A DNA stretch of 64,000 nucleotides from Pseudomonas poae (GTDB lineage Bacteria > Pseudomonadota > Gammaproteobacteria > Pseudomonadales > Pseudomonadaceae). Where the stretch lies: positions 3,796,001 to 3,860,000 of the forward strand of contig CP034537.1 of NCBI GenBank assembly GCA_004000515.1. The letters are read 5' to 3'. Below, in pieces: positions 8,441 to 37,953 of the stretch. Made by a program: the position numbers and the translations under genes. Every line of letters begins with the position of its first letter. Positions within the stretch are counted from its first letter, which is position 1. Under the pieces are notes generated by a model. The model had not been told where the DNA came from and ran no database searches. It was given only the letters and a program-made list of their open reading frames with translations.

Positions 8441-8791
8441 ATTTGGATCTCCATACATCAGGCGGACAGCGGTCTGCTTTGGCTCTGGCTTTTGATCTGG
8501 CTTTTGATCTTGATCTTAGGCGCCCCGTTAAACCACGCTGGCCGAACGCAGGCTTGAATCCGTGGGTAACCCGGCAGGACGCCGGGTTAGCCGCCCCGCG
8601 CCATGGATGGCGCGTGGCGGCGGCCCACGGATTCAAGCCGGAGTGAGGGCATGCCGAGCCTAGGCGAGACACCGAGTGGTGGGGCGAAGCGTTTTGCTTA
8701 CTTTTGCGCTTTTCAAAAGTGAGCCGCTGTAAGAGCGGAACCCATATCAGCCGTGACCAAAACAACGGATATGTACACTAACCCTGACCCC

Positions 8792-12898: not shown

Positions 12899-13633
12899 TC
12901 ACCGCGTTCCCGGATACCGCGTCTCCATCACGATCGACAACGCATCCGGGCGCCAGAATTCCTGGTCGAATTCCACGGCCTGGTTGTCCTCGCCGAAGTT
13001 CAAGCGCTCCAGGTACACGCTGGTGGAGCCCGGCGACAGTTGCAGTAACTCGGCTTGTTCTTCGTTCACCGTGCCGATATGCATTTCCAGCTCACACCGC
13101 GACTGCACCCGCGCAAAACGCTCGCGCAGCAGTTGGGTCAGCGAGGTATTGAGGTCGGCTTCCAGCAGGCCAGGGCACCAACTGGCGAGCAGCGCGTTGA
13201 ACTCCAGCAGCACCGGGCGGCGGTCGATCCAGCGGCGGCGTTGCAGGAAGAACACCGGCTCGTCCGCCGAGGTCAGGCCCATGCGCTTGGCCAGCCAGGG
13301 GCCGGCGGGGCGCAGTTCGGCGTGCAGGCATTCGGTGCGCGGGGTGCGGCCCTGGGCGCTGACGTAATCCATGAAACCGCTGATACGCGTGGGGTCGTAG
13401 CGGATGCGCTGGGGGCTGACGAACCAGCCCCGGCGGTTTTCGCGGTACACCAGGCCTTCGGCTTCCAGTTGCTGCAACGCTTGGCGCAGGGTGACGCGGG
13501 TGCAGCCGAAGCGTTCGATCATGTCCCGTTCGGAGGGGAATTTCTCATCGGCCTGGGGGTTGCCCGCGGCGATGTCATTGGCGATCTGTTCGCGGATGCG
13601 CTGGTAGTGCGGGGAAATGGGGTCGAAAGGCAT
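12899..13633 (-). CDS. GntR-family transcriptional regulator with UTRA domain (HutC/PhnF type)
   Basis: This 244-residue regulator has an N-terminal winged helix-turn-helix (residues about 12-75; FPSERDMIERFGCTRVTLRQ) and a C-terminal UTRA ligand-binding domain (about 95-235; PVFFLQRRRWIDRRPVLLEF). HutC-subfamily proteins bind as dimers to TGGT-N4-ACCA palindromes and are usually released by a small metabolite. I chose the ATG at 13633 because the winged-helix domain starts about ten residues later; longer upstream readings add only low-complexity sequence. The gene lies between the monooxygenase at 13714 and the receptor/phoD pair. A perfect TGGTATATACCA palindrome occurs at 23495, ahead of the salvage cluster. 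It fits this regulator class but is 10 kb away. Confidence 0.88.
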   Translation of the reverse strand: MPFDPISPHYQRIREQIANDIAAGNPQADEKFPSERDMIERFGCTRVTLRQALQQLEAEGLVYRENRRGWFVSPQRIRYDPTRISGFMDYVSAQGRTPRTECLHAELRPAGPWLAKRMGLTSADEPVFFLQRRRWIDRRPVLLEFNALLASWCPGLLEADLNTSLTQLLRERFARVQSRCELEMHIGTVNEEQAELLQLSPGSTSVYLERLNFGEDNQAVEFDQEFWRPDALSIVMETRYPGTR

Positions 13634-13713: not shown

Positions 13714-15085
13714 CTATGCAAAGCGGAATGACGCGCCATGGGCCGAGGCCGGCAACCGGTCACTGCCATCGGCGCGCAGGCGCGAGCGCAAGGTGCCGCT
13801 TTGCGCCGTGGTGCGGTACAGGCCACGTTTTTGCAGGGCCGGGATCACCAGTTCGACAAAGTCGTTCAAGGAGCCTGGACTGATCAGCGGGTTGAGCATG
13901 TAGCCGCTGGTGCCGGAGATGCGGGCGTGCTCCTCGATCTTTTCCGCGATCTGCTCCGGGGTGCCCACCAGGATCAGGTCGCTGCCCCGGTGACATTGGC
14001 GAAGCGCTGGCGCACCTCGCCGGCAGTCAGCGGCTTGCCGCTGCCATCGGGCTTCATGATGTAGGAGGTCATGCCTTCGGTGTGGGTCGACAGCGCCTCG
14101 TTGTCGGCATAGCGGTTGATGTCGATGCCGGTGTCACCGGCGTAGCTCACCAACTGTGCTTGCAGGTGATAGTTGCTTTGCAGGGTGTCGTATTTTTCTG
14201 CGCCTCGATGGCCGTAGGAGCAGTGACGATGCGCAACACGGTCAGCGATTTTACGTCGGCCGCCTGACGGCCTCGGGCCTCGGCCTGGCGCCAGATATCT
14301 TCCAGGCCCTGGCGGATTTCCAGCGGGTTGGATTTGGCGATAAACACCAACTCCGCGTGCTTGGCGGCGAATTGCCGACCACGCCCCGACCAACCGGCCT
14401 GGATCAGCAACGGCGTGCGTTGCGGCGACGGCGACGTGAGGTGCGGCCCGGCCACCCGGTAATGTTCACCGGCATGCTGGATAGGCCGCACACGCGCGCC
14501 ATCGGCGTAGGTGTGCGCGAGCTTGTCGGCGATCACCGCGTCATCGGCCCAGCTGCCTTCCCAGAGCTTGTACACCACGTCGAGAAACTCTTCGGCGCGC
14601 TCATAACGGTCGTCGTGCTTGATCATCTGCTCCAGGCCGAAATTGCGCGCAGCACTGGACAGGTACGAGGTGACGATGTTCCAGCCGATGCGCCCGTCCG
14701 ACAGGTGATCGAGGGTGCTGAAACGCCGGGCGTGGGTGAACGGGTGCTCGTAAGTGGTGGTGACGGTGACGCCAAACGCGAGTTTTTCGGTGAGGGCCAC
14801 CAGTGCCGGAATAATCGTCAGCGGGTCATTGGCCGGGGCTTCCACCGCCCATTTCAACGCCATGGCTTCGGAGCCGCCGAACACATCGTAAAAGCCCAGC
14901 ACGTCGCCGAAGAACATCAGGTCGAGGTTGGCTTCATCTGCCGTGCGGGCCAGGTTCGACCAGTATTTGAGGGTATTGATGCCCAGCCGCTCATCCGCCG
15001 GGTGGGTCCACAGGCTGGGCGCGCCGCCGCAGCCGACGCTGGCTTGTTCATAAAGGCCGAATAACAACGGGGTGGGATCGGACAT
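13714..15085 (-). CDS. LLM-class FMN-dependent monooxygenase, two apparent frameshifts
   Basis: This is a luciferase-like flavin monooxygenase of the NtaA/SnaA/DszA group, 457 residues after correction. Landmarks are the FFGDVLGFYDVFGG loop, YEHPFTHARRFSTLDHLS, GRIGWNIVTSYLSSAARNFG and LIQAGWSGRGRQFAA. One frame is lost at the TTTTT at 14193-14197 (one A short on the coding strand) and the other at the CCCC at 13985-13988 (one G short). It differs clearly from the monooxygenase at 1536, so it should have another substrate. It begins 27 bases after the amino-acid-type permease gene, which suggests that the imported compound is its substrate. Release of sulfite or a similar sulfur or nitrogen moiety is the common role in this family. 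Confidence 0.86.
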
Positions 15086-15112: not shown

Positions 15113-15942
15113 CTAGCGCCCGTGGAGATAAGCCTTGCCGTAGTGCCGTTCCAGCCGGGCCTGGATCAGTTCCAGGCCGATCGACAGCAACCAGTAGATG
15201 ACGGCAGCGGTGGTGAGCATTTCGATATAGCGGTAAGACGAGCGGCCATAGGATTGCGCCAAAACATCACTTCCCACACACCCATCACCGACACCAGGGA
15301 AGAGTCCTTGAGCATCGAGATGAACTGGCTGGTGGTGGGCGGGATGATGGTGCGCATGGCCTGGGGCAAGACGATCTGCCAGAAGGTCACCGCACGGCCC
15401 ATGCCGAGAGCGGCGGCTGCGTTACGTTGGCCCTGGGATACGCCGAGAATGCCGGCGCGGAAGATCTCGCTGAGGTACGCGCCGTAGTTCAGCGACAACG
15501 CGATGATCCCGGCACTGATGGCGCCTGGTACCACCCCCAATTGAGGCAGGCCCAGGTAGATCAGCAAGATCTGGATCAGCAGTGGCGTGCCGCGAAAAAA
15601 CGAGGCGTAGAAGCTGGCGATACCGAACGCCACCGCGCTGCTCGACAACCGCGCCAGGGCGGTGGCAAAACCCAGCGCCACCGACAGCCAGATCGAGCAG
15701 AAGCACAGGAACAGCGTCAGCGCCGCGCCCTGCAGGAAACCCTGGGGCGACAGGTGCAGCCCCACCAGGTTTTGCCACTTGGCGGCAACGATGGCGAACT
15801 GCAGGTCGAAGCTCATGAACAGGCCGGCGAACAGGCACAGCATCACGCCCCAGGTCAGCCACAGGCGTACTTTGAACGACAGCAGCGTGCGCTTGACCGG
15901 TGGTGGTTTCACAACGGCGGGCGGGGTGGGGAATACACTCAT
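15113..15942 (-). CDS. Amino-acid ABC transporter permease (HisM/cystine type), one apparent frameshift
   Basis: This is a polar amino-acid transporter permease. A proline-rich cytoplasmic N-terminus is followed by membrane helices, FLQGAALTLFLCFCSIWLSV and the typical GTPLLIQILLIYLGLPQ segment. The EAA loop is in GQRNAAAALGMGRAVTFWQI, and the tail contains LPQAMRTIIPPTTSQFISML. The frame breaks at the AAAA at 15261-15264 (TTTT on the coding strand). With one T restored the protein ends as a 276-residue chain at the TAG at 15113-15115. The ATG at 15942 overlaps the binding-protein stop. No ATPase gene accompanies the pair in this cluster. Confidence 0.87.
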
Positions 15943-16758
15943 TGGGTAATGTCTGAGCCGATCCATTTCTGGGAGATCTTCGCCAACGTGCCGTCGCTTT
16001 TCAGCTCGGCGAGGATCTGGGTCAGCTTGGCATCCCAGGCCGGATCGCCTTTCTCGGTAGCCACCACATTGGGCTCGGCGTACAGCACGTCACCGGTGAT
16101 CTTGAAGCGCGGGTCGTGGTCAATGCGTTCCTTGGCGGTGACCAGGTTGGTCACCATGGCATCCAGGCGTTTGCCGGTGCCCAGGGCCAGGTCCTGGAAG
16201 GCGATGATCTCGTTGTCGTAGGGCACGGCCTGAACGGCCTTGAACGGGTAGTCGATGGGCTTGCTGGCGCCTTCGATCACCAGGTCCTTGGCCAGGTAGG
16301 CTTCGTAGGTGGACGCACTGCCTACACCGACTTTTTTTACCGGTCAGGTCGGCCGCCGACTGGATGCTGTTGTCGGTTGCATTGACCACCACCACGGCAG
16401 GCGAGGCGTAGTATTCGACCGGGAAATTGAACACCTGGCCGCGTGCTGCGCTAGGCGTCATGGAGCAGATGCACACATCGTAACGGCCACTCCAACGGCC
16501 GGCGGCGATGACTTCCCAGGAGGGAGTTTCCAGTTTGAGTTTCACGCCGAGTTTGTCGGCCACGGCCTTGGTGACATCCACGTCAAAACCGTCCAGCTGG
16601 TTCTGTTCGTTGAGGAAGGAGAACGGTGGGTAGTTCTCCATCAACACGCCGACCAACTGTTTGGATTGGGTGATGCGGTCCAGGGTTTGCCCGGCGAACA
16701 CGGCCGGGCTGGCCAGGAGAAGGGTGACGCTGAGGGCGGCGGCAGTGCGTAAGTTCAT
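15939..16758 (-). CDS. Amino-acid ABC transporter substrate-binding protein (family 3), one apparent frameshift
   Basis: This periplasmic binding protein has a cleavable signal peptide (MNLRTAAALSVTLLLASPAVFA, roughly residues 1-22). The SBP_bac_3 fold is evident from LVGVLMENYPPFSFLNE, DGFDVDVTKAVADKLG, PSWEVIAAGRWSGRYDV and the C-terminal LKSDGTLAKISQKWIGSD. Here the break is an apparent insertion: seven T at 16332-16338, where six give an open frame through GKKVGVGSAS. The corrected protein has 272 residues. It is coupled to the permease (ATGA). The ligand could be cystine or another sulfur amino acid, given the monooxygenase next door, but the sequence does not settle this. Confidence 0.86.
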
Positions 16759-16830
16759 AAAAGCATCCAAGCGAGTTTTTTTATATTTAAACGCGATAGA
16801 TGCCCTAATGTTTAATGATATTAAACGCTG
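16759..16830 (-). promoter_or_regulatory. Promoter region with palindrome GTTTAATGATATTAAAC
   Basis: The 62-base gap between pnuC and the binding-protein gene is strongly AT-rich. GTTTAATGATATTAAAC at 16810-16826 has perfect six-base arms (GTTTAA/TTAAAC) around a five-base centre. It overlaps the pnuC stop codon and lies about 52 bases before the binding-protein ATG. Position and symmetry suggest an operator for a dimeric repressor or activator, and a separate promoter for the 16758-to-13714 unit. Confidence 0.45.
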
Positions 16831-17414
16831 TAAACCGACGCTTTGGTTATATGTTCCTGTTGGTGCAAATCCCGTTGCCAGGCGCGCAAACCATAGGCCG
16901 CCAGCACCACGAATCCGGCGTACAGCGCGGCGGTCAACTGCAGGTCTTTGTACAGGAACAGGCCCACATACGCCGCGTCCAGCACGATCCACAACCACCA
17001 GCTGACCACGTATTTACGCGCTGCCCACAGGCTGGCGACCAGGCTGAACGCGGTGAGCAACGAGTCCAGCCACGGTAGTGCCGCGTCGGTGAAATGGTGC
17101 ATCACCGCCCCCAGCGCCACGGCGCCGATCAACCCTGCGAGCAAGTGACGCCAGGCCTCTTGCAGCGGCAGGCGTTCCACCCGTACTTTGCCGGCCTCCA
17201 CGCGCCCGGTGCTCCAGCGCCACCAGCCGTAGCCCTGCAGCGCGGCGAAGACCAGTTGCAGAAGCATGTCCGAATACAGCTTTACGTCGAAGAAGATCCA
17301 GGCATACAGCAACACCGCGACCACGCTGACCGGCCAGCACCAGCGCACGCGTTGCGCGGTGAGCCAGACCCCGGCGATGTTGAAGAACACGGCGACAATT
17401 TCCAGTGGCGACAT
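16821..17414 (-). CDS. pnuC: PnuC/PnuT-family vitamin transporter
   Basis: This is an inner-membrane facilitator of the PnuC family, 197 residues with about seven hydrophobic segments. Family features include VLLYAWIFFDVKLYSDMLLQ, the GWWRWS segment and VVSWWLWIVLDAAYVGLFLY followed by LTAALYAGFVVLAAYG. Members import nicotinamide riboside (PnuC), thiamine (PnuT) or riboflavin (PnuX), and the sequence alone does not decide which. It is the last gene of the salvage cluster, 16 bases after the acid phosphatase gene. That phosphatase type removes phosphate from NMN, or possibly from thiamine phosphates, outside the inner membrane, and the dephosphorylated vitamin is what this transporter class carries. 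Confidence 0.9.
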   Translation of the reverse strand: MSPLEIVAVFFNIAGVWLTAQRVRWCWPVSVVAVLLYAWIFFDVKLYSDMLLQLVFAALQGYGWWRWSTGRVEAGKVRVERLPLQEAWRHLLAGLIGAVALGAVMHHFTDAALPWLDSLLTAFSLVASLWAARKYVVSWWLWIVLDAAYVGLFLYKDLQLTAALYAGFVVLAAYGLRAWQRDLHQQEHITKASVYSV

Positions 17415-17430
17415 AGGGTTCTCTCAAGAA

Positions 17431-18267
17431 CTAGTTTTCCAGGTGCAGCGCCTGTTGCTTGAGCTGGCGCTTGCGTTCGAAGGGCAGTTTTTCCTGGTCG
17501 CCATAGGGCGCGCTGTACCAGTTGCCGTAGGTTGGGTTGGGCAGCACGAACCAGCGTTGGCCGAGCCAGGCCAGGTACGGCGCGGCGGCCTTGCGCTGGT
17601 CGGCCAGGGTGTTGTGTTCGGCTTGCACGAAGTCACCCAGCGAGTCGCCCGCAAGCATCAGCACGCGGGCGTGGCTGGCGACCCATTGGCGGCGGCAGTT
17701 CTTGCCGTAGCCAGCCTGTTCGCAGTGCCCGGTCGGGGTGCCGGCGGCCAGCACCTGTTCGTTGTGCGCCACCGGAAAACCGCGCAGGCGCAGATTGTTG
17801 ACGGTGGCCTGGACCTGGCTGTGTTCGCGGTTGGTGATGTAGTAGACGGTGATGCCTTTCTTGTCCGCCGCCTGCAAGAACTCCACCGCGCCGGGCAGGG
17901 CCCGGGCCTTGGCCTGGTCGACCCAGGTGTTCCAGCGGTCGTAGGAATAGACCTGGTTGCTGAGGATGTCCCGCGCGTTAAGCGGCACGTTGTCCAGCAC
18001 GGTTTCGTCGATATCCACCACCACCGCCGGCGGCAGGCCGGCGAGGTTGCGCGGCGGCAAGGGCAGGGCGTCCCAGGTCGGGTCGGCCAAGGCGGCATCC
18101 AGCTGGCGCGTGGCACTGGCGAAGACTTGTGTGTAGATCAGCTCGTGCTCGATGGAGGTCTGCGTCCACAGCACCGCGTCCAATTGGTCGTTGGCGGGCG
18201 GTTGCTGCTGGCAGCCCACCAGGGCGGTGGAGAGCAGGCACACACTGGAGAAAATTAGATTACGCAT
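17431..18267 (-). CDS. Class C acid phosphatase lipoprotein, e(P4)-like (HAD superfamily)
   Basis: This is a lipid-anchored DDDD-type phosphatase facing the periplasm or cell surface. The N-terminus MRNLIFSSVCLLSTALVGC is a lipoprotein signal with lipobox ALVGC and Cys19. The catalytic motif VVDIDETVLDN (about residues 83-93) carries the two Asp of HAD motif I, and LMLAGDSLGDF supplies the later Asp pair. IYTQVFASATRQL and YYITNRE are also family-typical. Haemophilus e(P4) hydrolyses NMN to nicotinamide riboside for PnuC; related enzymes accept several nucleoside and thiamine phosphates. Placed between a TonB receptor and a PnuC transporter, it fits a step that strips phosphate so the vitamin can cross the inner membrane. 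Confidence 0.9.
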   Translation of the reverse strand: MRNLIFSSVCLLSTALVGCQQQPPANDQLDAVLWTQTSIEHELIYTQVFASATRQLDAALADPTWDALPLPPRNLAGLPPAVVVDIDETVLDNVPLNARDILSNQVYSYDRWNTWVDQAKARALPGAVEFLQAADKKGITVYYITNREHSQVQATVNNLRLRGFPVAHNEQVLAAGTPTGHCEQAGYGKNCRRQWVASHARVLMLAGDSLGDFVQAEHNTLADQRKAAAPYLAWLGQRWFVLPNPTYGNWYSAPYGDQEKLPFERKRQLKQQALHLEN

Positions 18268-18279
18268 GAACGGTCAGCC

Positions 18280-20424
18280 TCAAAAATTGACGGTGGCGGA
18301 CAACCGCGCCGTGCGCGGCGCACCCAGGAACAGGTAGCCGTCGCCTGCGGATTCACCCACATCGCGCCAGTAACGTTTGTCGAACAGGTTGTCGACGGTC
18401 AGGCGCAGCACAGTAGCGTAATCACCGACCTTGGTGGTGTAGCGGCCACCCACATCGAACACCGCATAGTCATCCACTTTCACCGTGGCTTCACGGTTGG
18501 CGTATTTGCTTGCGCTGTATTGCACGCCGCCGAGCAGGGCCAAACCGGGTATGCCTGGGATGCTGTAGTCGCCATGCAAACTGGCGCGCAGCTTGGGCAC
18601 GTTGATTGCCTGGTGGCCGTCGTAGTCGTCGGTGCCGCTGTCACTCACCCGTGCGCGAATGGCCGCGACGCTGGCCGAGACTTGCAGGTCGGAGGTCACG
18701 CGGCCGTTGGCGGACAACTCGATCCCCACGTTCTTCTGCTTGCCTTGCTGCACGAAGGTAGTCGTGCCGTCGTCATTCGGGCGGTTGTATTGCAGGTCCT
18801 CGGTGATCTGGAACAGTGCAGCGGTCAGGCTCAGACGCTGGAAGTCGCGCTTGATGCCCACTTCCAGTTGGCGCGAGGTGGTCGGCGGCAATACTTCGTC
18901 GGCGTTGCTGCTGAACCAGGCGGCTTCGCCACCCAGCGACAGGCCCTTGCTGTAGCTGGCATACAACGAGGTGTCCGGGCGCGGTTTGTAGATCAACGCC
19001 ACCTGGGGCAGGAACACGCTGCGTTGGGTGTGACGCGTGGTGTCGCCCGCCTGGTTGTAGGTCTCTTCATCCAGGCGTACCTGGCGCCCGCCGAGGATGG
19101 TTTGCCATTGCTCGTTGAAACTGATGCGGTCGCTGGCGAACAGGCCGTACTGGCGGCTGTCGAGGCGGCGGTAGGTGTGGCCCAGCGGGCCGTCGTAGGG
19201 TTCCAGCACCGGTGACGGCTGGTAGATATTGCCCTCGCCGATGTACTCATTGACCGATTTGCGCCGGTCCACCAGGCGCCGGAACGCAGTGGTGCCGAAG
19301 GTCAGGTCATGCTTGAGGAAACCGGTATCGAACTGGCCATTGAGCGCGGCCTGGGCTTCTTCGTTGCTACGGGTGTCGTCGGGGCTGCGGTAGTCGGAGA
19401 TGTCGTAGTCACCTTCGGCGCTGAAGTGGTTGGGCACCGCCGTATTCGCGCAACTGGCGGCGCCGTAGCAACCCCAGGCGAAGGTGCTGTAGTCGTCGAT
19501 GACCACGCGGCTGCGGGAGGCGCTGAAGCTGGCTTTCCAGGCGTCGTTGAAGCGGTATTCGAACAAGCCGTCAAGGTTCAGGGAGCGTATGCCTACCGGG
19601 TTCGACCAACTCTGGTAGGCCAATAGATCCTTGGGCGAAACGTGGTGGGGCACTTCGGTACCGCCCAGCAGTTGGTAGCCCGGCACCGAGCGTTGTTCGC
19701 GGTCCTGGTATTCGGCGTTGAGTTGCAGCAGGGCGTTGGGGCTGATGTTCCAATCCAGCGCCAGGGAAGCGAAATCGCGCTTGCCGTCGGCGTGGTCGAC
19801 ATAGGAGCGGATGTCTTCGTGGGCCAGGTTGATGCGCACGCCTACTTGTTGTTCGGTGCCCAGCCAACCGCCGATATCAGTGGCCAAATAGCGTTCGCCG
19901 TGTTCGTTGGTGGACACGGTCACCGAGCGCACATTCTCCGGGCGCTTGCTCACGTAGTTGACCAGCCCACCGGGTTCGGAGACGCCGCTCTGCAAGCCGG
20001 CCAGGCCCTTGAGCACTTCCACTTGCTGCTTGTTTTCCAGCGCCACGTTCTGCTCGCCGGTGATGGTGCGGCCATTGATCTTGTAGCTGCTGGCCGGGTT
20101 GAGGGCGAAGCCGCGGATCACGAAATTCTCGTAGTAGCCGACCGGGGCGTAGCTGTCGCCCACCGAGGCGTCGTTTTTCAAGACTTCGCTGAGCAGGCGT
20201 GCCTGTTGGTCTTTGAGGCGCGCTTCGGTGATCACCGCGACGGAAGCCGGGGTATCCAGCAGCGGCGCGTTGTCGAAGCCGGCCACTGCGGCTTTTTTGG
20301 CCTGGTAGTCGGTGCTTTCCTGGCCAAGGACGGTGACGGTGTCCAGGGTTGCATCCTGGGCATGTGCCGCAGCGGCGAAGGTGATGCTCAAGGCGAGCAG
20401 GGTGTGGCGATAGGGTGTAGCCAT
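18280..20424 (-). CDS. TonB-dependent siderophore-type receptor
   Basis: This is an intact 714-residue outer-membrane receptor of the TonB-siderophore class. I start it at the ATG at 20424 because MATPYRHTLLALSITFAAAA is a proper signal peptide and GGAG lies about 12 bases upstream; an in-frame start 18 codons earlier gives no signal. The TonB box is near LDTVTVLGQES. The plug has NFVIRGFALNPASSYKINGR and VEVLKGLAGLQSGVSEPGGL, and the C-terminus is ARLSATVNF. Despite the siderophore-type plug, it sits 12 bases before an acid phosphatase and then pnuC, so its cargo may be a phosphorylated vitamin or a dinucleotide and not an iron chelate. That role is inference. Confidence 0.9.
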   Translation of the reverse strand: MATPYRHTLLALSITFAAAAHAQDATLDTVTVLGQESTDYQAKKAAVAGFDNAPLLDTPASVAVITEARLKDQQARLLSEVLKNDASVGDSYAPVGYYENFVIRGFALNPASSYKINGRTITGEQNVALENKQQVEVLKGLAGLQSGVSEPGGLVNYVSKRPENVRSVTVSTNEHGERYLATDIGGWLGTEQQVGVRINLAHEDIRSYVDHADGKRDFASLALDWNISPNALLQLNAEYQDREQRSVPGYQLLGGTEVPHHVSPKDLLAYQSWSNPVGIRSLNLDGLFEYRFNDAWKASFSASRSRVVIDDYSTFAWGCYGAASCANTAVPNHFSAEGDYDISDYRSPDDTRSNEEAQAALNGQFDTGFLKHDLTFGTTAFRRLVDRRKSVNEYIGEGNIYQPSPVLEPYDGPLGHTYRRLDSRQYGLFASDRISFNEQWQTILGGRQVRLDEETYNQAGDTTRHTQRSVFLPQVALIYKPRPDTSLYASYSKGLSLGGEAAWFSSNADEVLPPTTSRQLEVGIKRDFQRLSLTAALFQITEDLQYNRPNDDGTTTFVQQGKQKNVGIELSANGRVTSDLQVSASVAAIRARVSDSGTDDYDGHQAINVPKLRASLHGDYSIPGIPGLALLGGVQYSASKYANREATVKVDDYAVFDVGGRYTTKVGDYATVLRLTVDNLFDKRYWRDVGESAGDGYLFLGAPRTARLSATVNF

Positions 20425-20551
20425 GTAAAGAGCGCTCCAAGGGCATGACCGTCGTTGCCGTACGCTTTTATCGGGCACAAAGGGGCCCAGCGCTGCGCAA
20501 CGGACGGGTTGCCAGTTCGTGATGAAAAAGCCGAGTTCGCCAGAGGTGGCG

Positions 20552-21423
20552 TCAGGCCGGAGCTGCTCCGGTAGTCATTGGTAAGCGTGCGTCGGCGGCC
20601 CATTCCTGTAGGGAACCGTCGTAGATTGCGATGTCCTGGCGACCCAGGAGGGTCAGGGCCAACGCGTTGGCAGCGGCGGAGATACCGCCGCCGCAATACA
20701 GAATCAGAGGGCCTTCGCTGTGCAGCAGCGTGGGGCCGATCGCCAGGCCAGGGCATCCTTTGGCAGGTAGCGGCCGTGGGCATCGAACAACTCGCGGGCC
20801 GGCAGGTTTTGGCTGCCGGGGATGTGCCCGCGTCGGGCGTAGCGGGTGGGCGCGGTGCCTTCGAACAGCGCCGCGCCAAGGGCACAGATCAGCAGGCCGG
20901 GTGCGTGACCGTCGACGATTGCTTCGACGCCACTGCGGTCAATCCACAGCCCGACACGCGGGTTGATTGCCCAGGGTTGCACAGGCGTGGCCGGTTCGGC
21001 GCGGCCGTTGTGTTCCGGCAAACCGGCGGCGCGCCAGGCGTTGAACCCGCCATCGAGTACCTGGGCGTCGATGCCTGCGCCGCGCAGCATCCACCACAGG
21101 CGAGCGGCCCAGAAGCCATCGGCGCGGTCGTAGATAACCAGGGTTTTCCCTTGGCCGGCGCCGAGCTTGGCCAAACTGTTTACCAGCGCTTCAGGCGTTG
21201 GCAGGGCGAAGCTGAAACTGGCTTGGGTGTCGGCCAAGTCAGTCAATAAATCTGCGTGTCGAGCGCCTGGAATATGCGCCTGCAACCAGCCGTCTTCGCC
21301 GCTTTGGACGCGGTAATCACCATCGAACGCCGGCGACGGCAACACCACCGTGGCATCCAGTATCACCAGCGTGGGATCAGCCAAATGCGCGTGCAACCAC
21401 TGAGTATCGACCAGCATGCTCAT
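20552..21423 (-). CDS. Two-domain rhodanese/sulfurtransferase, one apparent frameshift
   Basis: This is a tandem rhodanese-domain protein, 290 residues after correction. The N-terminal domain (LVDTQWLHAHLADPTLVILD, ARHADLLTDLADT) is inactive, as usual. The C-terminal domain carries the active-site loop ILYCGGGISAAANALAL with the catalytic Cys. The usual 3-mercaptopyruvate type has CGSGVTA or CGTGVTA here, so CGGGISA is a variant and the donor is uncertain. The frame breaks at the CC at 20743-20744; one more G on the coding strand restores AWAIGPTLLHSEG and extends the gene to the TGA at 20552-20554. Its start overlaps the kinase stop. Sulfur transfer for cofactor or thiazole chemistry is one idea suggested by its neighbours. 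Confidence 0.85.
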
Positions 21424-22522
21424 ACGCTTTTACGCCGGATATGGCCAAGCAACCGTTGCCCTTCGGCGCCGGCGAACCAGCGCAGATGGCCGAGCAGGTA
21501 GGCGTAATAGGCGATATCGGCGCTGGCGGCGGAGCCCACCACGTCCTGGTAATACGCCACCTCGGACAGGGCGAAATCCACGTGCACCAGCGGCAACAGG
21601 GCGCTGAGGGTGAGCAGGTCGCGGGTGCTCAATGGACGCACTTGGTGATACCCGGCGAGCAGGGCATCTACGCTGTCGAGATCGGCACGCGCTACGCCAC
21701 CCGTATCAAGGTCCAACCAGGGCACGGCGTTGCGTTCGATGGCAGTGGCCAGGTCGAAGAGCGCGAAGGTGCGGTCGGCCAGGCCAAAATCCAGCACGCT
21801 GGAAACGCTGCCGTCGGTATTCCACAGCAGGTTGGAGGCGTGCCAGTCGTTGTGGGTCCACAGCGGTGGTTGTTCACGTAACAGCGGATGCAGTTCTGCG
21901 TGCCACGGCAACAGCAACTCGCCGAGTTGAGTGCGCCACTCCTTGTCGGCGAGGTAGGGACTGCTGATGCCTTCCAGCGGGTTTGATTGTTCAATCAACC
22001 GTGCGTTGGCCAGCAGCACCTGGGTCTGGCGTTGAGGGGCATCGTAGTGTTCGGCGGCCTGGTGCAAACGGGCCAACGCCTGGCCTGCGGCGAGGGCATG
22101 CCGGGTATTTTGAAACGGTGACCACGACAACGCATCGCGGTACAGGTCCAGGCCCTCGGCAACGTGGTGCACTTCATACGTCCACTCACCTTGCCCCGTC
22201 GCCGTGGCGCCATGCCGGTTCGATACCACTGCCGCCACCGGCGCGCCCCGGCGATGCAGATGGGCGATCAGGCGATGCTCTTCCTCCAGCCACGCGGCTT
22301 GGCGCACCTGTTGGTGATGGCGTTTGACGAACAGCGTGCCAGCGCCGGTGGTGATCAACCCCGCAGCGGAAAACGGCCGTGGACTGTGCCAATGCAGGCT
22401 GTGCAAGGGGCCCAGTTGGGGTAGTCAACCAGCAGCTGCTCGATGTCGGCTTCATGCAGGGCCGGCCAGTCGGCGGCGACCGGCTCCAACCCCAGGCCGT
22501 GGGCGGTGCGTTGGGGGTTCAT
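21420..22522 (-). CDS. APH-fold small-molecule kinase, one apparent frameshift
   Basis: This is a predicted cytoplasmic kinase of the aminoglycoside/choline/thiamine kinase fold. The catalytic loop is WTHNDWHASNLLW (H-x-D-x-H-x-x-N) and the metal-binding DFG equivalent is VLDFGLADRTFALFDLA. The N-terminus from the ATG at 22522 reads MNPQRTAHGLGLEPVAADWP. The frame breaks at the GGGG at 22418-22421 (CCCC on the coding strand, five expected). With this corrected the protein is 367 residues. It overlaps the Thi5-like gene upstream and the rhodanese downstream (both ATGA). The fold includes thiamine kinase ThiK, homoserine kinase II and methylthioribose kinase. In this context, rephosphorylating an imported vitamin is an attractive but unproven role. 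Confidence 0.85.
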
Positions 22523-23438
22523 ACGTTTACCTCAGGCAGGTAGGCGTTGCTGGTCGCGCCTTGCCAAACCTGCGGGTTGTCGAGCACGGCATGCGCGTGC
22601 AGCCACTCGGCGTAGGTTTGCAGCAACGCCTGGCGTTGCTCACCCCAGCGGCCTCTGTGCAGCCAGGTCGGGGCGATTTTATGCAGCGAGGCGTTCAAAA
22701 GTTCAGCAGGGAAATACGGTGTGGTGTGTTCGTAGGCGGTGAGTGCGATTGACGGATCTTGCGCCACGGCCAAGTAGCCTTTGCGGTGGCGGCGAGGAAA
22801 TCACGCACCAGGTCGGGCTTGTCGGCCAGGGTGCGTTCATGGGCGCCGAGCAGGTAGCTGTGATAGGCCGGTGCGCCGATCTCATCCACCGGCAACACGA
22901 CGCGACGCTCGGCGTCGATGGGGCTGTGCATCAGCGCTTCCCAGGCCCAGTAGCCGCCGAAGCTGGCGTCGGCAATGCCCTCGGCGAGTTGCTCGGGCCG
23001 CAGTTCGCGCACGCCGCTGTCGACCAGGATCACGCCGTCCGGATCACCGCCATCGCGGCTGACCAGATGACGCACCATGGCCAGGCCGCGTGGCGTCGGG
23101 TTGAGCGCCAGGCGCTTGCCCACCAGGTCGCGGGGGCGGCGGATGCCGGAGTCGGTGAGGGTCTGGATCGACTCCAGGCCAGCATGGTTGATGGCGGCGA
23201 TGCCTTGCAGCGCCTGGCCCAGGCCACGGCGTACGAGAAGGCGGTTGCTGGGGAAGATGCCGAAGTCTGCGGCGCCGGTCAGCAGGTGTTGCAGGGTGTC
23301 GCCGTGGTAGGGGTCGTGGACGACCAGTTCTACATCCAGGCCGAGTTCTTCGTACCAGCCGCGTTCGCGTGCCAGGTACAGACCGGCCGAGTTTGGCCAG
23401 GGGTGGAAGTACTCCAGCATTACCTTTACCGACACCAT
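22519..23438 (-). CDS. Thi5/NMT1-like protein without signal peptide, one apparent frameshift
   Basis: This belongs to the family containing fungal Thi5/NMT1 (pyrimidine precursor of thiamine) and bacterial ThiY/SsuA-type binding proteins. MVSVKVMLEYFHPWPNSAGL, ARERGWYEELGLDVELV, LLTGAADFGIFPSN and LVGKRLALNPTPRGLA give the fold. It has no export signal: the mature-like sequence starts at the ATG at 23438, with GGAG about 10 bases upstream, and an in-frame TAG only 9 bases before the ATG rules out a longer N-terminus. The frame breaks at the TTT at 22778-22780 (AAA on the coding strand). Restoring one A gives 306 residues. The Cys-rich CCCFC motif of yeast Thi5 is not present at the matching loop (EIGAPAYHSYLL). 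It could be a cytosolic enzyme or ligand-binding protein; the catalytic role is uncertain. Confidence 0.8.
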
Positions 23439-23506: not shown

Positions 23507-23874
23507 ATATCGGTTGGTGCTATGGATATAACTGGGTGGGGCTTTGGGTACATATCCGTTGTTTGGGTGATGGCTGAAAGTGGTTCCGCCCTTACGGCGG
23601 GTCACTTTGGAAAAGCCCCAAAGTAACCAAAGGGCTCTTGCCCCAACACTCGGCACCTCGCCTAGGCTCGGTGTGCCCTCACTCCGGCTTTGGAGCGTGG
23701 GCCGCCGCGATGGGCCATCCTTGGCCCAGCGCGGCTAACCCGGCGTCCTGCCGGGTTACCCACGCTCCAAAACCTGCGTTCGGCCAGCGTGTTTGACGGG
23801 GCGCCTCTAGATCAAAAGCAAGAGCGCGGCGGCCTTAGAGCCGACCGAGTTTTCAGTCGGAGTGAGTTCAAAAT

Positions 23875-24107: not shown

Positions 24108-24297
24108 TGTATCAGGCAGACAGCGGTCTGCTCTGGCTCTGTTTTTGATCTTGATCTTAGGCGCCCTGTTAAACCACGCTGGCCGAACGCAGGCTTGAAT
24201 CCGTGGCTAACCCAACCAACGGATATGCCCCCATACAGACCGATCAACCCCCGCTGTGTACACTCCACCGCCATCATTCACTTCAAAGGAGAGTCCG

Positions 24298-25248
24298 GTG
24301 GACCTACGCCAGTTGGAAGCATTCGCCGCCGTCATGTCGGCAGGCAGTGTCACCGGAGCCGGGCAGATGCTCGGTCGCTCACAACCCACCGTGACGCGCC
24401 TGATCCAGGAGCTTGAGCAAGAACTGGGCTTCGCCTTGTTCGAACGCAGCGGCCCCAAAGTCACCCCCACGCAAAAAGCCTTCAAGCTCTCGGCCGAAGT
24501 CGACAGTGCCTTGCAAGGGGTTCGCCACGTTCAGCAGCGCGCCTTGAACATCGCCCGCGACGAGAACCTCAGCCTGCGCGTGGTCGCAACTCCCGCCTTG
24601 GCTGCCGGCTTGCTACCCCCGGCAATTGCACGTTTGCCGGCGCAACTGCGCCCGCAGCAATTGCAGATCCAGAGCCTCACCCCCGAAGGCGTGGTGCAGG
24701 CCGTGCTGGCGAAGACCGTCGACCTCGGCGTGGTCAGCCTGCCGTTGGAGCATCGCGGCCTGGAGGTGCATTGGATCGGCGAGGCGTCTTGCGTTGCGGT
24801 ACTGGCGCACGACTCACCCTTGGCGAGCGAGTCGGTGCTGAGCATGGAGACGCTGGCGCAGCACACGCTGATCAGTATTTCCAACCCGTTCCGTTTTCGC
24901 CGTCGCATCAACAAGGCTTTTGAAAACATGGGTGCCGAGCCCCAGCACATCCTAGAAACCAACACTTCGCTGACCGCCATGCAAATGGCCCGCGCCGGTC
25001 TTGGGGTGGCGTTGGTGGACCCGTTCACCGCATTCGGCGTGCCGCTCAATGGCGTGGTCGTGCGGCCGATTGAAAGCACCATCCCGTTTTTCTTCGGCCT
25101 GATTTCAGCGTTTGCCAGCCCGTTGTCGGACGTGGCCAGTGCGTTGATCGACACCCTGCAAGCCTCGTCCCAAGAGTTGCTGCCGGGCATGATCATCCAC
25201 CCGGCCAACCGTCATGACGCCTTGATGCAGCGCATCTACGCCAGCTGA
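24298..25248 (+). CDS. LysR-family transcriptional regulator
   Basis: This 316-residue LysR regulator has an N-terminal helix-turn-helix (residues about 3-60; LEAFAAVMSAGSVTGAGQML, RSQPTVTRLIQELEQELGF) and a periplasmic-binding-like effector domain. The start is the GTG at 24298, preceded by AAAGGAG. The frame is intact. It lies just after repeat B and reads toward the receptor/importer operon that starts 221 bases downstream, so it is the obvious candidate regulator for that operon. The effector is unknown. Confidence 0.9.
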   Translation: MDLRQLEAFAAVMSAGSVTGAGQMLGRSQPTVTRLIQELEQELGFALFERSGPKVTPTQKAFKLSAEVDSALQGVRHVQQRALNIARDENLSLRVVATPALAAGLLPPAIARLPAQLRPQQLQIQSLTPEGVVQAVLAKTVDLGVVSLPLEHRGLEVHWIGEASCVAVLAHDSPLASESVLSMETLAQHTLISISNPFRFRRRINKAFENMGAEPQHILETNTSLTAMQMARAGLGVALVDPFTAFGVPLNGVVVRPIESTIPFFFGLISAFASPLSDVASALIDTLQASSQELLPGMIIHPANRHDALMQRIYAS

Positions 25249-25469
25249 CCCTTATATAAGTTTTGGAATATGCATAGCTCTATTAATTAGTAGATGGAAT
25301 AAGTGATGCCCTTTAGTATTCATTTACCGCATTCAGTGCGCTAATGAATAACGAAAACGAATAGATGGCTGTTCACCCAGTCACCTTGCTTCGCGGACAT
25401 CCAGCCGACCTCGGCAAATCGCCGCACGACCAGCAACACCCTTTTGGCGATTTTCCGGGGAGTACCCAG
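25249..25469 (+). promoter_or_regulatory. AT-rich promoter region ahead of the 25470 operon
   Basis: This 221-base gap drops well below the local GC content. It contains TTTTGGAATATGCATAGC and a separated inverted pair, GAATA at 25297-25301 and TATTC at 25317-25321. LysR-type regulators often bind such spaced dyads. The ribosome site GGGGAG precedes the receptor ATG. No defined consensus could be assigned. Confidence 0.35.
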
Positions 25470-27966
25470 ATGCAAAACAGCTTTTCTTCGACTGCATTAT
25501 TTTCACCGGCGGCCTTTGCGCTGACCGGCCTGTGCCTGGCGTCCGCGCCGTTGATGGCAGAGGAAGACCAAGACTCCGAACGCAAGAAAGCCGAGCCGGT
25601 GATGGAGACCGTGGTCTCGGTCGGTAACCGTGGCAACCAGCGCACCGTGGCGCAAAGCGCCGTGCCGATTGATGTGATCGGTGGCGATGACCTGCAAAAG
25701 CAGGGCGGTAGCACGGCGCTGCGGGATGCCCTTGAGCATCTGCTGCCCTCCTTCAACGTGGCCAAGGTCACCGGCGGCGCCTACAGCAACGTGGCGCGGG
25801 CAGCCGGTTTGCGTGGCCTCGGCGGTGGCTATGTGTTGGTGTTGGTCAATGGCAAGCGTCGCCATGGCGGCTCGGTGGCCTCGGAAAACTCGGTACTGGT
25901 GGAAGGTTGGAACCCGGCTGACCTGGACCTGATTCCCATCAGCGCCATCGACCGCGTTGAAGTATTGCGTGACGGCGCCGCCGCCCAGTACGGTTCGGAT
26001 GCGATTGCCGGGGTGATCAATATCATCCTCAAGTCCGACAGCAGCGGCGGCAGTTCCAGCACCATGGCCGGGCGCAGATCGCATTACGCCAGTGGCGTCG
26101 GCTCCAATGGCGAGACGTACCAGCAAACGCTCAATTACGGCCTGCCGCTGCCCAACGACGGTTTCTTCAACTTCGCCCTCGACGCCAAGAAGCAGGACAG
26201 CACCAAGCGTTCCGGCGTGGCCACCGGCGCGTTCTATTATCCGGTCAACGGCCAACCCGACCCGCGTGAAAACACCGTGGAAAAACGCAGCTTCGGTGGC
26301 GGCCTGCCTGAGATCAAGCAGATCAACGTGTCGTATAACGCTGAGTTGCCGCTCAATGATGCGACCTCGTTGTACTCGTTCAGCACGCTGGGTAAGCAGG
26401 ATGCACTGGTCTCCATCGGTTTTCGTCGGCCCAACTCCAACACCATCATCAACGAGTTGTACCCGGACGGTATCGCCCCGGATTTCACCTTTGAAAGTCT
26501 CGACTACCAGACCACGTTCGGTGCTCGTGGCGATGACCTGGCCGGCTGGGGCTGGGACCTCAGCACCTCCTATGGCGCCAACCGCCAGAAGCAGATGACC
26601 GAGAACAACCTCAACCCGTCCCTCGGCACCGCAAGCCCCACCGATTTCACCTTGCAGACCAACACGTTTACCCAGTGGACCACCAACCTGGACCTCAACC
26701 GCAAGCTCGATATCGGCACGCGCAATCCGCTGAATTTCGCCACCGGCCTTGAGTACCGTTTCGAGCAGTACCGCACCGAATCCGGTGATGCGGACTCCTA
26801 CCGTAACGGCAACTATCGCTACCCGGTCGGCCACCCGCGTGCAGGCCAGTTGGCCGCCATTGGCGCCTTGGGCAACTACCTGTTGCTGCCGGAAGACGAA
26901 GTGAATTTGCGCCGCAGCGACTCGGCGGCGTATGTCGACCTGGGCCTGGACGTCACTGATAAATGGTTCGTCGGCGCTGCCGGGCGTTTCGAACACTACA
27001 CCGACAGCTCGGGCAATACCTGGACCGGCAAGCTCTCGACCCGCTATGCCTTCACGCCGGAAATCGCCGCACGCGGCGCCCTCAGCACCGGCTTCGTGGC
27101 ACCGTCGATGGTGCAACAGGGCTACGCCAAGACCGGCTTGGGCCGCCGCACCGTGGGCAACACCACCCAGGACATCATGATCAAACGCGTGCAGACCACC
27201 TCGGCGATTGGCAAGGCGTTGGGCGCCGAAGACCTGGAACCCGTGAAGTCGCAAAGCGTGTCCGCCGGCCTGACGTGGACGCCGGTCAAAGACTTGAACG
27301 TGGCACTGGACGCCTACGTGATCGACCTGCAGGACCGTATCGCGCTGATCAGCCCGCTGTCGGGCGCCGCCGTCGACCGGATCCTTGCCGCCAATGGTTT
27401 TCCCATGTACAGCAAGTGCAGTACTACGCGAATGCCTTCGACACCCGCACCAAGGGCCTCGACCTGGTGGCCGATTACACCAGTACCTGGACCGCTTCGG
27501 TCGCCTGCGCTGGAACGTCGGCGCCAACTGGAACAAGGCGACCATCACTGACCTCAAGGCCAACCCATCGCAGCTGCAAAGCCTTGGCCTGCAACGTTTC
27601 GAACGCACCGAACTGGGCGGCATCACCGACCTGACCCCCAAGAGCAAGTACATCGTTGGCCTTAACTGGCAGGTCAACGATTGGGACGTGGGCGTGCGCA
27701 CCACCCGCTACGGCAAGGTCAAGCGGCTGGGCAGCGGCACCACCGGCGTGGATGAAACGTTCAGCGCCAAGTGGATCACCGATGTCGACGTGACCTATGC
27801 CCTGACCGACAACGTGCGGGTCTCCCTGGGCGCCGATAACCTGTTCAACATTTACCCCGACAAGCACACCGTGACCGATGTCTCCGGCGGTTCCTACTAC
27901 TCGTCGATCTCGCCATTCGGTTCTTACGGGGCGTTCTACTACAGCCGCCTGAACATCGACTTTTAA
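25470..27966 (+). CDS. TonB-dependent receptor, two apparent frameshifts
   Basis: This is an outer-membrane TonB-dependent receptor, 832 residues after correction. The ATG at 25470 follows GGGGAG and gives the signal MQNSFSSTALFSPAAFALTG; the reading upstream of it is not signal-like. The plug has ETVVSVGNRGNQRTVAQSAV, RGLGGGYVLVLVNGKRRHG and DRVEVLRDGAAAQYGSDAIA, typical of the LVNGKRRH/DGAAAQYGSDA class. The C-terminus is FYYSRLNIDF. The frame breaks at G 27417 (one G short) and at the GG at 27489-27490 (one G short). It is a paralogue of the receptors at 2-1522 and 39198-41591. It heads a ten-gene unit with a flavin monooxygenase and a complete peptide-type importer. Confidence 0.9.
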
Positions 27967-37163: not shown

Positions 37164-37506
37164 TTTTTTTGGGGGGGTACATATCCGTTGTTTGGGTAAC
37201 GGCTGGTATTGGTTCCGCCCTTACGGCGGGTCACTTTTGGAAAAGAGCCCCAAAAGTAACCAAAGGGCTCTTGCCCCAACACTCGGCACCTCGCCTAGGC
37301 TCGGTGTGCCCTCACTCCGGCTTTGGAGCGTGGGCCGCCGCGATGGGCCATCCTTGGCCCAGCGCGGCTAACCCGGCGTCCTGCCGGGTTACCCACGCTC
37401 CAAAGCCTGCGTTCGGCCAGCGTGTTTGACGGGGCGCTTCTAGATCGAAAGCAAGAGCGCGGCGGCCTGATAGCCGGCCGAGTTTTCAGTCGGAGTGAGT
37501 TCAAAT

Positions 37507-37604: not shown

Positions 37605-37953
37605 ATTTGGATCTCCATGTATCAGGCAGACAGCGGTCTGCTCTGGCTCTGGCTCTGTTTTTGATCTTGATCTTGATCTTAAGCGCCCCGTTAAACCACG
37701 CTGGCCGAACGCAGGCTTGAATCCGTGGGTAACCCGGCAGGACGCCGGGTTAGCCGCGCTGGGCCATGGATGGCCCATCGCGGCGGCCCACGGATTCAAG
37801 CCGGAGTGAGGGCATGTCGAGCCTAGGCGAGACACCGAGTGGTGGGGCAAGAGCCCTTGGTTACTTTGGGGCTCTTTTCCAAAGTGACCCGCTGTAAAAG
37901 CGGAACCCATATCAGCCGTTACCCAAACAACGGATATTCACCCACAACCCACA

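Follow-up and report, generated by a model that had tools for sequence, protein, structure and literature searches.

Gene content and layout of the locus

The window analyzed in this study is a stretch of 64,000 nucleotides from Pseudomonas poae. A run of genes on its minus strand and an element upstream of it are listed below from the upstream side.

23679..23781, minus strand: TwoAYGGAY element, upstream of the operon
22519..23438, minus strand: THI5L, a predicted leaderless NMT1/THI5-fold protein (intact relatives have ~306 aa; the frame is interrupted in this assembly)
21420..22522, minus strand: small-molecule kinase of the APH fold, with the catalytic motifs HNDWHASN and DFG (frame interrupted close to the 5′ end in this assembly)
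20552..21423, minus strand: two-domain rhodanese, 3-mercaptopyruvate-sulfurtransferase (MST)-like (active site CGGGISA; frame broken)
18280..20478, minus strand: TonB-dependent outer membrane receptor (probably starting at 20424, the onset of a signal-peptide-like stretch)
17431..18267, minus strand: e(P4)-like lipoprotein acid phosphatase (PF03767; optional accessory)
16821..17414, minus strand: PnuC-family inner-membrane transporter (PF04973)
15939..16758, minus strand: SBP_bac_3, an ABC binding protein of the cystine type (frame interrupted)
15113..15942, minus strand: ABC permease partnering the SBP_bac_3 protein (frame broken; end approximate)
13715..15085, minus strand: luciferase-like FMN monooxygenase of the NtaA/DmoA family (frame interrupted; end approximate)
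12899..13633, minus strand: PhnR-like transcriptional regulator of the GntR/UTRA type (the gene that recurrently closes the Pseudomonas operons)

The six genes from THI5L to the PnuC-family transporter had originally been predicted to form a unit. All six lie on the minus strand in the predicted order, and the Pfam families agree. Also, the predicted 4-base overlaps between the THI5L and kinase genes and between the kinase and rhodanese genes were found in the raw sequence as ATGA at 22522-22519 and 21423-21420, and the last three genes are closely spaced, with gaps of 12 and 16 bases. The rhodanese and TonB receptor genes do not overlap and are separated by 73 or 127 bases, depending on the receptor start chosen. 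Two further corrections apply: the frames are not intact, and the unit is not restricted to six genes, as the run goes on downstream to position 12899 with the genes for the binding protein (SBP), permease, monooxygenase and GntR/UTRA regulator. The Pseudomonas operon comprises about ten genes and closes with the GntR/UTRA regulator; GntR also recurs in the comparison described below, where 19 of 60 loci with THI5L have it, so that the unit extends beyond the first six genes. The cystine-type SBP was found in one of these 60 loci and in one further locus outside that set (L035), and only the closest relatives (L034/L056, L035) have it within this operon.

Two upstream features were set aside. 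The TwoAYGGAY element is not specific for the operon, because it is repeated genome-wide (26 matches, 16 of them in eight inverted pairs), and it was dropped as an operon regulator. A second TonB receptor and a LysR gene upstream were rejected as parts of the system, because only 3 of 24 Gram-negative loci have a relative of this receptor close to the cluster.

Single-base indels break each of the THI5L, kinase and rhodanese frames and also several downstream genes of the window. The 90% identical locus of P. aylmerensis (L034/L056) carries all ten genes in open frames. RpoB of Pseudomonas has about 1357 aa; the open frame with the rpoB match in the P. poae genome itself covers no more than 1112 aa, so that the frame breaks in the cluster seem to stem from assembly errors. 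Cluster decay was accordingly set aside for this strain.

Constant and exchanged genes across bacteria

THI5L was used as bait for the comparison, and its presence in 60 of 60 loci is therefore by construction. The 60 loci listed (of a total of at least 60) come from 14 named genera and four records not placed in a genus and span Pseudomonadota, Bacillota and Actinomycetota; they are not independent, with 18 from Pseudomonas and 14 from Streptomyces. The cluster thus occurs in several phyla, and the window holds one version of it, in a soil-type Pseudomonas.

The constant core consists of THI5L, an MST-like rhodanese and a kinase. The rhodanese is encoded in 56 of the 60 loci, in several different gene orders, and the kinase in 57, either with an APH fold (45 loci) or as a P-loop type (12 loci), never both together. 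In one locus (L099, 3161-4984) P-loop kinase and rhodanese are joined in one open frame. In 18 loci without THI5L, fetched by means of other genes, a search for rhodanese plus kinase at E 1e-8 gave no match. Two Ralstonia loci contain THI5L without any other part of the cluster. The importer, in contrast, is exchanged: PnuC was counted in 22 loci, a ThiY-type SBP with permease in 29 and YkoE with EcfT in 4, and none was detected in 5. The APH kinase accompanies PnuC in all 22 loci, 20 of which also have the TonB receptor. The phosphatase (≥80 bits) is confined to 7 of the 60 loci, all among the PnuC-bearing ones, and the monooxygenase, which belongs to a large family, to 28. A phosphatase/PnuC pair as core of the system, as proposed before, is therefore at odds with these counts (7 and 22 loci versus 56 for rhodanese and 57 for kinase).

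In the literature searched, where most subscription papers were outside coverage, this combination of genes was not found described, nor was a reaction assigned to the core proteins. The parts of the cluster swap cleanly, with three importer families and two kinase folds.

Relation of the encoded proteins to known families

THI5L of the window matches PF09084 at 174.2 bits. In the alignment it starts where mature ThiY starts, by which it is predicted to be leaderless; by eye, 18 of 20 aligned THI5L proteins start right at the fold and two have 10-11 extra residues. In Paenibacillus operons, the ThiY homologue encoded separately begins with a lipoprotein-type leader. The nearest structures to THI5L are 4NMY and the FAMP-binding 3IX1. 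With THI5, the HMP-P synthase, it shares the cytosolic NMT1 fold and a similarity of about 50 bits. THI5 depends on a PLP-binding lysine, an active-site histidine and the CCCFC iron motif; the THI5L family profile has F, R and aPayh there, which argues against the earlier suggestion that the gene product makes the thiamine pyrimidine. Thiaminase I, described in PMC5627462 as acting on thiamine and having a fold like that of periplasmic binding proteins, has this fold in common with THI5L. However, thiaminase I is secreted and has a catalytic cysteine, whereas the 20 aligned, predicted leaderless THI5L proteins have no invariant cysteine and are thus not thiaminase I by mechanism. It was also not among the eight structure matches listed for THI5L.

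Like 3-mercaptopyruvate sulfurtransferase (SseA), the cluster rhodaneses have two rhodanese domains, a catalytic cysteine (kept in 54 of 55) and a CGxG loop, but the family score is 140.7 bits against a cut-off of 250. According to PMC12926118, Arg188 and Arg197 of MST contact mercaptopyruvate. The first position is Arg in only 3 of the 55 cluster rhodaneses; the second column is Tyr in 54, with Arg (49) or Lys (5) in the neighboring column, so that an anion might still be accommodated in the pocket. The five Bacillota rhodaneses have canonical CGxGVT loops, and three of these have Arg188.

The kinase residues His, Asp and Asn of HxDxHxxN as well as DFG are invariant in 15 aligned relatives and present in the kinase of the window. 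Its listed NCBIfam matches are homoserine-kinase-like and below cut-off, with no thiamine kinase (ThiK) model among them. The predicted e(P4)-like phosphatase is a HAD subfamily IIIB acid phosphatase, but scores below the cut-off of TIGR01533 (177.9 versus 216.05 bits). For the receptor, the siderophore type was corroborated (TIGR01783, 441.9 bits; cut-off 223.5), a placement that was counted against the dismantling model described below.

The three importer families all have thiamine precedents. The PnuC protein of the window has the Pnu fold (PF04973, 179.1 bits). One cluster ThiY-type protein, from Paenibacillus (L073), matched 4NMY at 456.8 bits, a structure listed as thiamin-bound in PMC10586155. 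One cluster YkoE was compared and matches 5EDL. The thiamine contacts of this S component (Mycobacterium/Leifsonia version) are, according to PMC5037267, Trp49, Glu77, Gln95, Asp131 and Tyr46. All four cluster copies keep Trp49, Gln95 and Asp131 and have Ser for Glu77 and Gly for Tyr46. Both TPP-riboswitch-adjacent YkoE copies have Ser77 too, but Glu instead of Gln at 95, and Ser77 was hence dropped as proof of a different ligand. The versions of the cluster in Bacillota and Actinomycetota thus use homologues of the thiamine/HMP importers ThiXYZ (ThiY) and YkoEDC, but here these sit together with the kinase, the rhodanese and a second NMT1 protein that is predicted to be leaderless.

Regulation and possible function

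No TPP riboswitch was found in the window, even by a permissive search, on the whole loci at the gathering threshold, or on the cluster in a genome-wide scan of 48 hosts (0 of 48; L080 was cleared by direct scan), whereas 47 of the same 48 genomes have a match elsewhere. TPP riboswitch control of the cluster was therefore rejected. The local regulators are GntR and MerR. Among the 48 host genomes, 43 have a thiC match and 34 have TenA-family genes.

The original interpretation as an undescribed-looking, vitamin-type uptake-plus-kinase system that favors thiamine over NAD precursors survives in this outline, but simple thiamine salvage is not supported, as no TPP riboswitch was found on any locus tested. 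Thiamine or a close analogue is fairly well supported as substrate class. We tentatively favor, at somewhat less than even chances, an undescribed module by which such a compound is imported, trapped by phosphorylation and transformed in the cytoplasm, being most likely dismantled and not fed into TPP. The TonB receptor would admit the vitamer, as such or phosphorylated, to the periplasm, the lipoprotein phosphatase, where present, would remove the phosphate, and PnuC (elsewhere a ThiY-type ABC or YkoE-type ECF importer) would carry the vitamer into the cytoplasm. For the subsequent reactions of kinase, THI5L, rhodanese and monooxygenase, sequence comparison gives weak indications. The APH kinase (elsewhere the P-loop kinase) might phosphorylate a hydroxyl group of the vitamer, and THI5L, a cytosolic protein with a periplasmic-binding-protein fold, might act as a hydrolase opening the thiazolium ring of the phosphorylated vitamer to a formylaminopyrimidine (FAMP)-type product and an alpha-mercaptoketone phosphate, from which the MST-like rhodanese could take the sulfur; in some hosts, the monooxygenase might finish the carbon skeleton. 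In this exact form the route is rather unlikely. Thiamine breakdown passes via an alpha-mercaptoketone, 5-hydroxy-3-mercapto-2-pentanone, according to PMC9572956 and PMC6270652. Besides the receptor type, the altered YkoE contacts, the basic residue kept next to the Arg197 column, the Bacillota rhodaneses with Arg188, the two Ralstonia loci, the uneven, capped set of loci and the patchy occurrence of the monooxygenase speak against the model. We infer that dismantling is the purpose of the cluster and that control is exerted by the neighboring GntR/UTRA or MerR regulator. If the substrate is thiamine, this would be a vitamin system spread over several phyla. FAMP is described in PMC10470507 as a thiamine breakdown product made by bacterial cultures in the dark, details of its formation being called unknown there. 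The cluster suggests a specific enzymatic source of FAMP; it also suggests that the periplasmic-binding-protein fold can carry out a chemistry new to it and that the rhodanese/MST family has a further substrate. The dismantling route, if true, would be previously unknown and one biological source of FAMP.

The importer and kinase evidence fits equally a repair or salvage of damaged thiamine (oxidised, ring-opened or disulfide forms), in which the kinase would phosphorylate the compound and THI5L and rhodanese would restore the thiazole, yielding usable ThMP. A sulfur-handling enzyme suits such a repair, and so do the five hosts without a thiC match and the frequency of TenA-family genes; yet TPP control would be expected in genomes that use it elsewhere, and most hosts have thiC, which leaves repair a rather unlikely alternative. 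A substrate other than thiamine, either a different small heterocycle or a sulfur compound, is unlikely as well; in this reading the importers would be divergent members of thiamine-type families, and the monooxygenase and cystine-type genes would point to sulfur scavenging. The siderophore-type receptor, the downstream genes of the window for a cystine-type SBP and an NtaA/DmoA monooxygenase, the local regulators, the lack of any TPP riboswitch in our searches and the two changed YkoE contacts are consistent with it, but one and the same core is combined with three unrelated importer families that all have thiamine precedents, and the cystine-type SBP is nearly confined to the closest relatives.

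Thiamine-phosphate salvage by receptor, phosphatase, a PnuT-like PnuC and a thiamine kinase, with THI5L and rhodanese as accessories, resembles the Bacteroidetes operons of OMthi, pnuT and tnr3, which, according to PMC5613172, likewise combine a TonB receptor, a Pnu-family transporter and a phosphorylation-trapping enzyme. The constant APH kinase of PnuC-bearing loci agrees with this. However, those operons are under TPP riboswitch control and encode a thiamine pyrophosphate-forming enzyme, whereas the cluster has an APH-fold kinase with no thiamine kinase model among its listed matches, added THI5L and rhodanese, and no TPP riboswitch in our searches; moreover, the constant companions of THI5L are rhodanese and kinase, not receptor, phosphatase and PnuC, and we regard this salvage as improbable. 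The e(P4)-like phosphatase adjoining PnuC in the window had been taken to favor NAD precursors (NMN to nicotinamide riboside, PnuC uptake and a kinase), which is very improbable, because the other PnuC gene of the genome (L001/L053) overlaps an AAA_28 kinase gene that we take to be of the NadR type in the ordinary nicotinamide riboside arrangement, the phosphatase is present in only 7 of 22 PnuC-bearing loci, and 38 of the 60 THI5L loci lack PnuC. A NadR-type kinase gene also adjoins the second PnuC in three other genomes compared. Both systems share the PnuC family (PF04973), but the nicotinamide riboside kinase gene stands beside the other PnuC and not beside that of the cluster, whose own kinase is unrelated. 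The NadR-linked PnuC copies share a Gln with 4QTN; the cluster copies have Ser or Ala at this position.

Operon structure and frame breaks

The original prediction of a six-gene run on the minus strand at 16821-23438 was confirmed, and the run was found to continue downstream to position 12899.

Genes of the operon in the window
within 16821-23438, minus, first gene: leaderless NMT1/THI5-fold protein (THI5L)
within 16821-23438, minus, second gene: APH-fold kinase
within 16821-23438, minus, third gene: two-domain rhodanese
within 16821-23438, minus, fourth gene: TonB receptor
within 16821-23438, minus, fifth gene: e(P4)-like lipoprotein phosphatase
within 16821-23438, minus, sixth gene: PnuC-family transporter
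downstream, to 12899, minus: cystine-type binding protein, ABC permease, NtaA/DmoA-type monooxygenase, GntR/UTRA regulator

Several of the ten operon genes in the window copy carry single-base frame breaks. These ten genes also occur in the close relative Pseudomonas aylmerensis (L034, the contig of locus L056), where their frames are open and the DNA is 90% identical. Since the open frame of the rpoB match in the own genome comprises 1112 aa and thus falls short of the RpoB length of about 1357 aa, the frame breaks are likely caused by assembly rather than evolution. No description of the gene set was found in searches of one open-access library.

Distribution and composition of THI5L loci

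THI5L had 645 homologues (E up to 0.001). Twenty aligned sequences, with Pseudomonas, Streptomyces, Paenibacillus, and a Methanobacterium bin among the sources, showed 58-83% identity to the first one and many invariant polar residues; no Cys was invariant among the 20. The distribution is patchy: THI5L was detected in 26 of 398 genomes of the genus and in 5 of 398 genomes of a phylum sample, the own genome counted in both cases (E up to 1e-30). At least 60 THI5L loci are located in named genomes, and in this sample the operon parts were counted by translated searches among the matches listed. Thereby, the earlier view on which genes are central proved wrong: PnuC (22/60) and the phosphatase (7/60) were found far less often than the rhodanese (56/60). 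The kinase was of the APH type in 45 and of the P-loop type (PRK06547-like) in 12 of the listed loci, never both together, and was missing in three, namely two Ralstonia loci and L097, which is cut by a contig end. The TonB receptor was also present in 22 loci, in 20 of them together with PnuC; two Acetobacter loci had PnuC without the receptor. A ThiY-type binding protein with permease occurred in 29, YkoE with EcfT in four, the monooxygenase in 28, GntR in 19, and MerR in five of the 60 listed loci.

Gene orders at THI5L loci
Pseudomonas: THI5L-kinase-rhodanese-receptor-(phosphatase)-PnuC-GntR
Paenibacillus: ThiY-THI5L-kinase-permease-ATPase-MerR-rhodanese
most Streptomyces: rhodanese divergent from THI5L-ThiY-permease-ATPase-kinase
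Actinoplanes-type: ThiY-permease-ATPase-THI5L-rhodanese-P-loop kinase-monooxygenase
Mycobacterium: YkoE-ATPase-EcfT-P-loop kinase-THI5L-rhodanese

In the acidimicrobial bin L099, a single open frame holds the P-loop kinase and the rhodanese. Owing to relatedness among the 60 listed loci (18 are from Pseudomonas and 14 from Streptomyces), their counts are not independent; the reshuffling over 14 named genera (13 without Ralstonia, which has THI5L only) is the stronger argument. Phylum names of the hosts are given as background.

Among 18 control loci without THI5L, most of them fetched via phosphatase homologues, no rhodanese or kinase match was obtained (E 1e-8), and PnuC matches were present in two, L046 (receptor-phosphatase-PnuC) and L053 with the second PnuC of the own genome.

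As side observations, the Ralstonia THI5L proteins (L102, L112; about 50% identical) had no other cluster gene within 8 kb. A phosphatase with 79-88% identity stands alone in ten other Pseudomonas loci (L036-L045), without THI5L, rhodanese, and kinase, and thus moves independently of the cluster. The Pseudomonas loci L046 and L047 contain receptor and phosphatase, one also PnuC, without the core of THI5L, kinase, and rhodanese, so the uptake half can stand alone.

Substrate, control and proposed chemistry

The cluster was borne out as an unusual one of vitamin type, with thiamine likelier than NAD. The core is combined with three unrelated types of importers, all with thiamine links, which makes thiamine or a near analogue the most economical reading of the putative substrate. 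The exported binding protein of the Paenibacillus locus L073, the sole cluster version compared in this way, matched 4NMY with 456.8 bits, a structure listed as thiamin-bound (PMC10586155); the binding proteins of Actinomycetota are 32-47% identical to it, and that of the L099 bin 29%. The S component of Mycobacterium and Leifsonia matches YkoE (5EDL) and retains Trp49, Gln95, and Asp131, residues that have been reported to contact thiamine (PMC5037267). In the Pseudomonas, Acinetobacter, and Acetobacter versions the importer is PnuC, a member of the family to which the thiamine carrier PnuT belongs (PMC5613172). The cluster PnuC is distinct from the PnuC adjoining a NadR-type kinase gene in four of the genomes compared. 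At L053 (9806-10914), the second PnuC of the own genome overlaps such an AAA_28 kinase gene, by appearance a two-gene nicotinamide riboside system.

Against thiamine, the TonB receptor scores in a siderophore subfamily, and two YkoE contacts are changed (Glu77 to Ser, Tyr46 to Gly). The Ser77 change does not discriminate, since Ser is likewise found there in two YkoE copies adjacent to TPP riboswitches, one from the Leifsonia genome and one from a Paractinoplanes genome; these copies have Glu at position 95.

Simple salvage, as originally proposed, was not borne out on present evidence. A genome-wide search of 48 hosts with stricter filters, compared with the loci by coordinates (contig names not shown), revealed no TPP riboswitch on the cluster, while 47 hosts had at least one match elsewhere (87 matches; above the family cut-off in 43 genomes). 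Solely L080 had a coordinate possibly coinciding with the locus; direct scans detected no TPP riboswitch in L080, in 19 fetched THI5L loci (two being the same locus), or in the window. Control is therefore presumably local, via GntR/UTRA or MerR. Since thiC was present in 43 of the 48 hosts, the majority of those tested produce their own pyrimidine; TenA-family genes were found in 34.

The structures nearest to THI5L are thiamin-bound 4NMY and FAMP-binding 3IX1; THI5 is more distant, and its catalytic residues are missing from THI5L. The kinase retains its catalytic motifs, and the rhodanese its catalytic Cys in 54 of 55 sequences. Arg188, which hydrogen-bonds mercaptopyruvate in human 3-mercaptopyruvate sulfurtransferase (MST; PMC12926118), is Arg in only 3 of 55. 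Arg or Lys stands next to the Arg197 column in 54 of 55, so the pocket could still hold an anion such as phosphate. Breakdown of thiamine proceeds via 5-hydroxy-3-mercapto-2-pentanone (PMC9572956, PMC6270652), an alpha-mercaptoketone without carboxylate, which would be a fitting substrate for an MST-like enzyme that has lost Arg188. From this match we infer an order in which the vitamer would be imported and then phosphorylated by the kinase, THI5L would open the ring of the phosphorylated vitamer, the rhodanese would desulfurate, and the monooxygenase, in hosts that have one, would oxidise last. Repair of damaged thiamine, for which these parts would run in reverse, is a serious rival to this breakdown order.

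Neighbouring elements

Upstream of the cluster, at 24256-27551, the opposite strand carries a gene for a LysR regulator and one for a second TonB receptor. Receptors related to the latter (36-47% identity) were found no more than 8 kb away from the cluster in three of 24 Gram-negative loci (L055, L056, L058). The TwoAYGGAY motif (RF01731) had 26 matches in the own genome, 16 of which form eight inverted pairs with starts about 390-540 bases apart, an arrangement that resembles the termini of a small repeated element more than it does a cis-regulator.

TwoAYGGAY copies in the window
8544-8646
23679-23781
37312-37414
37707-37809
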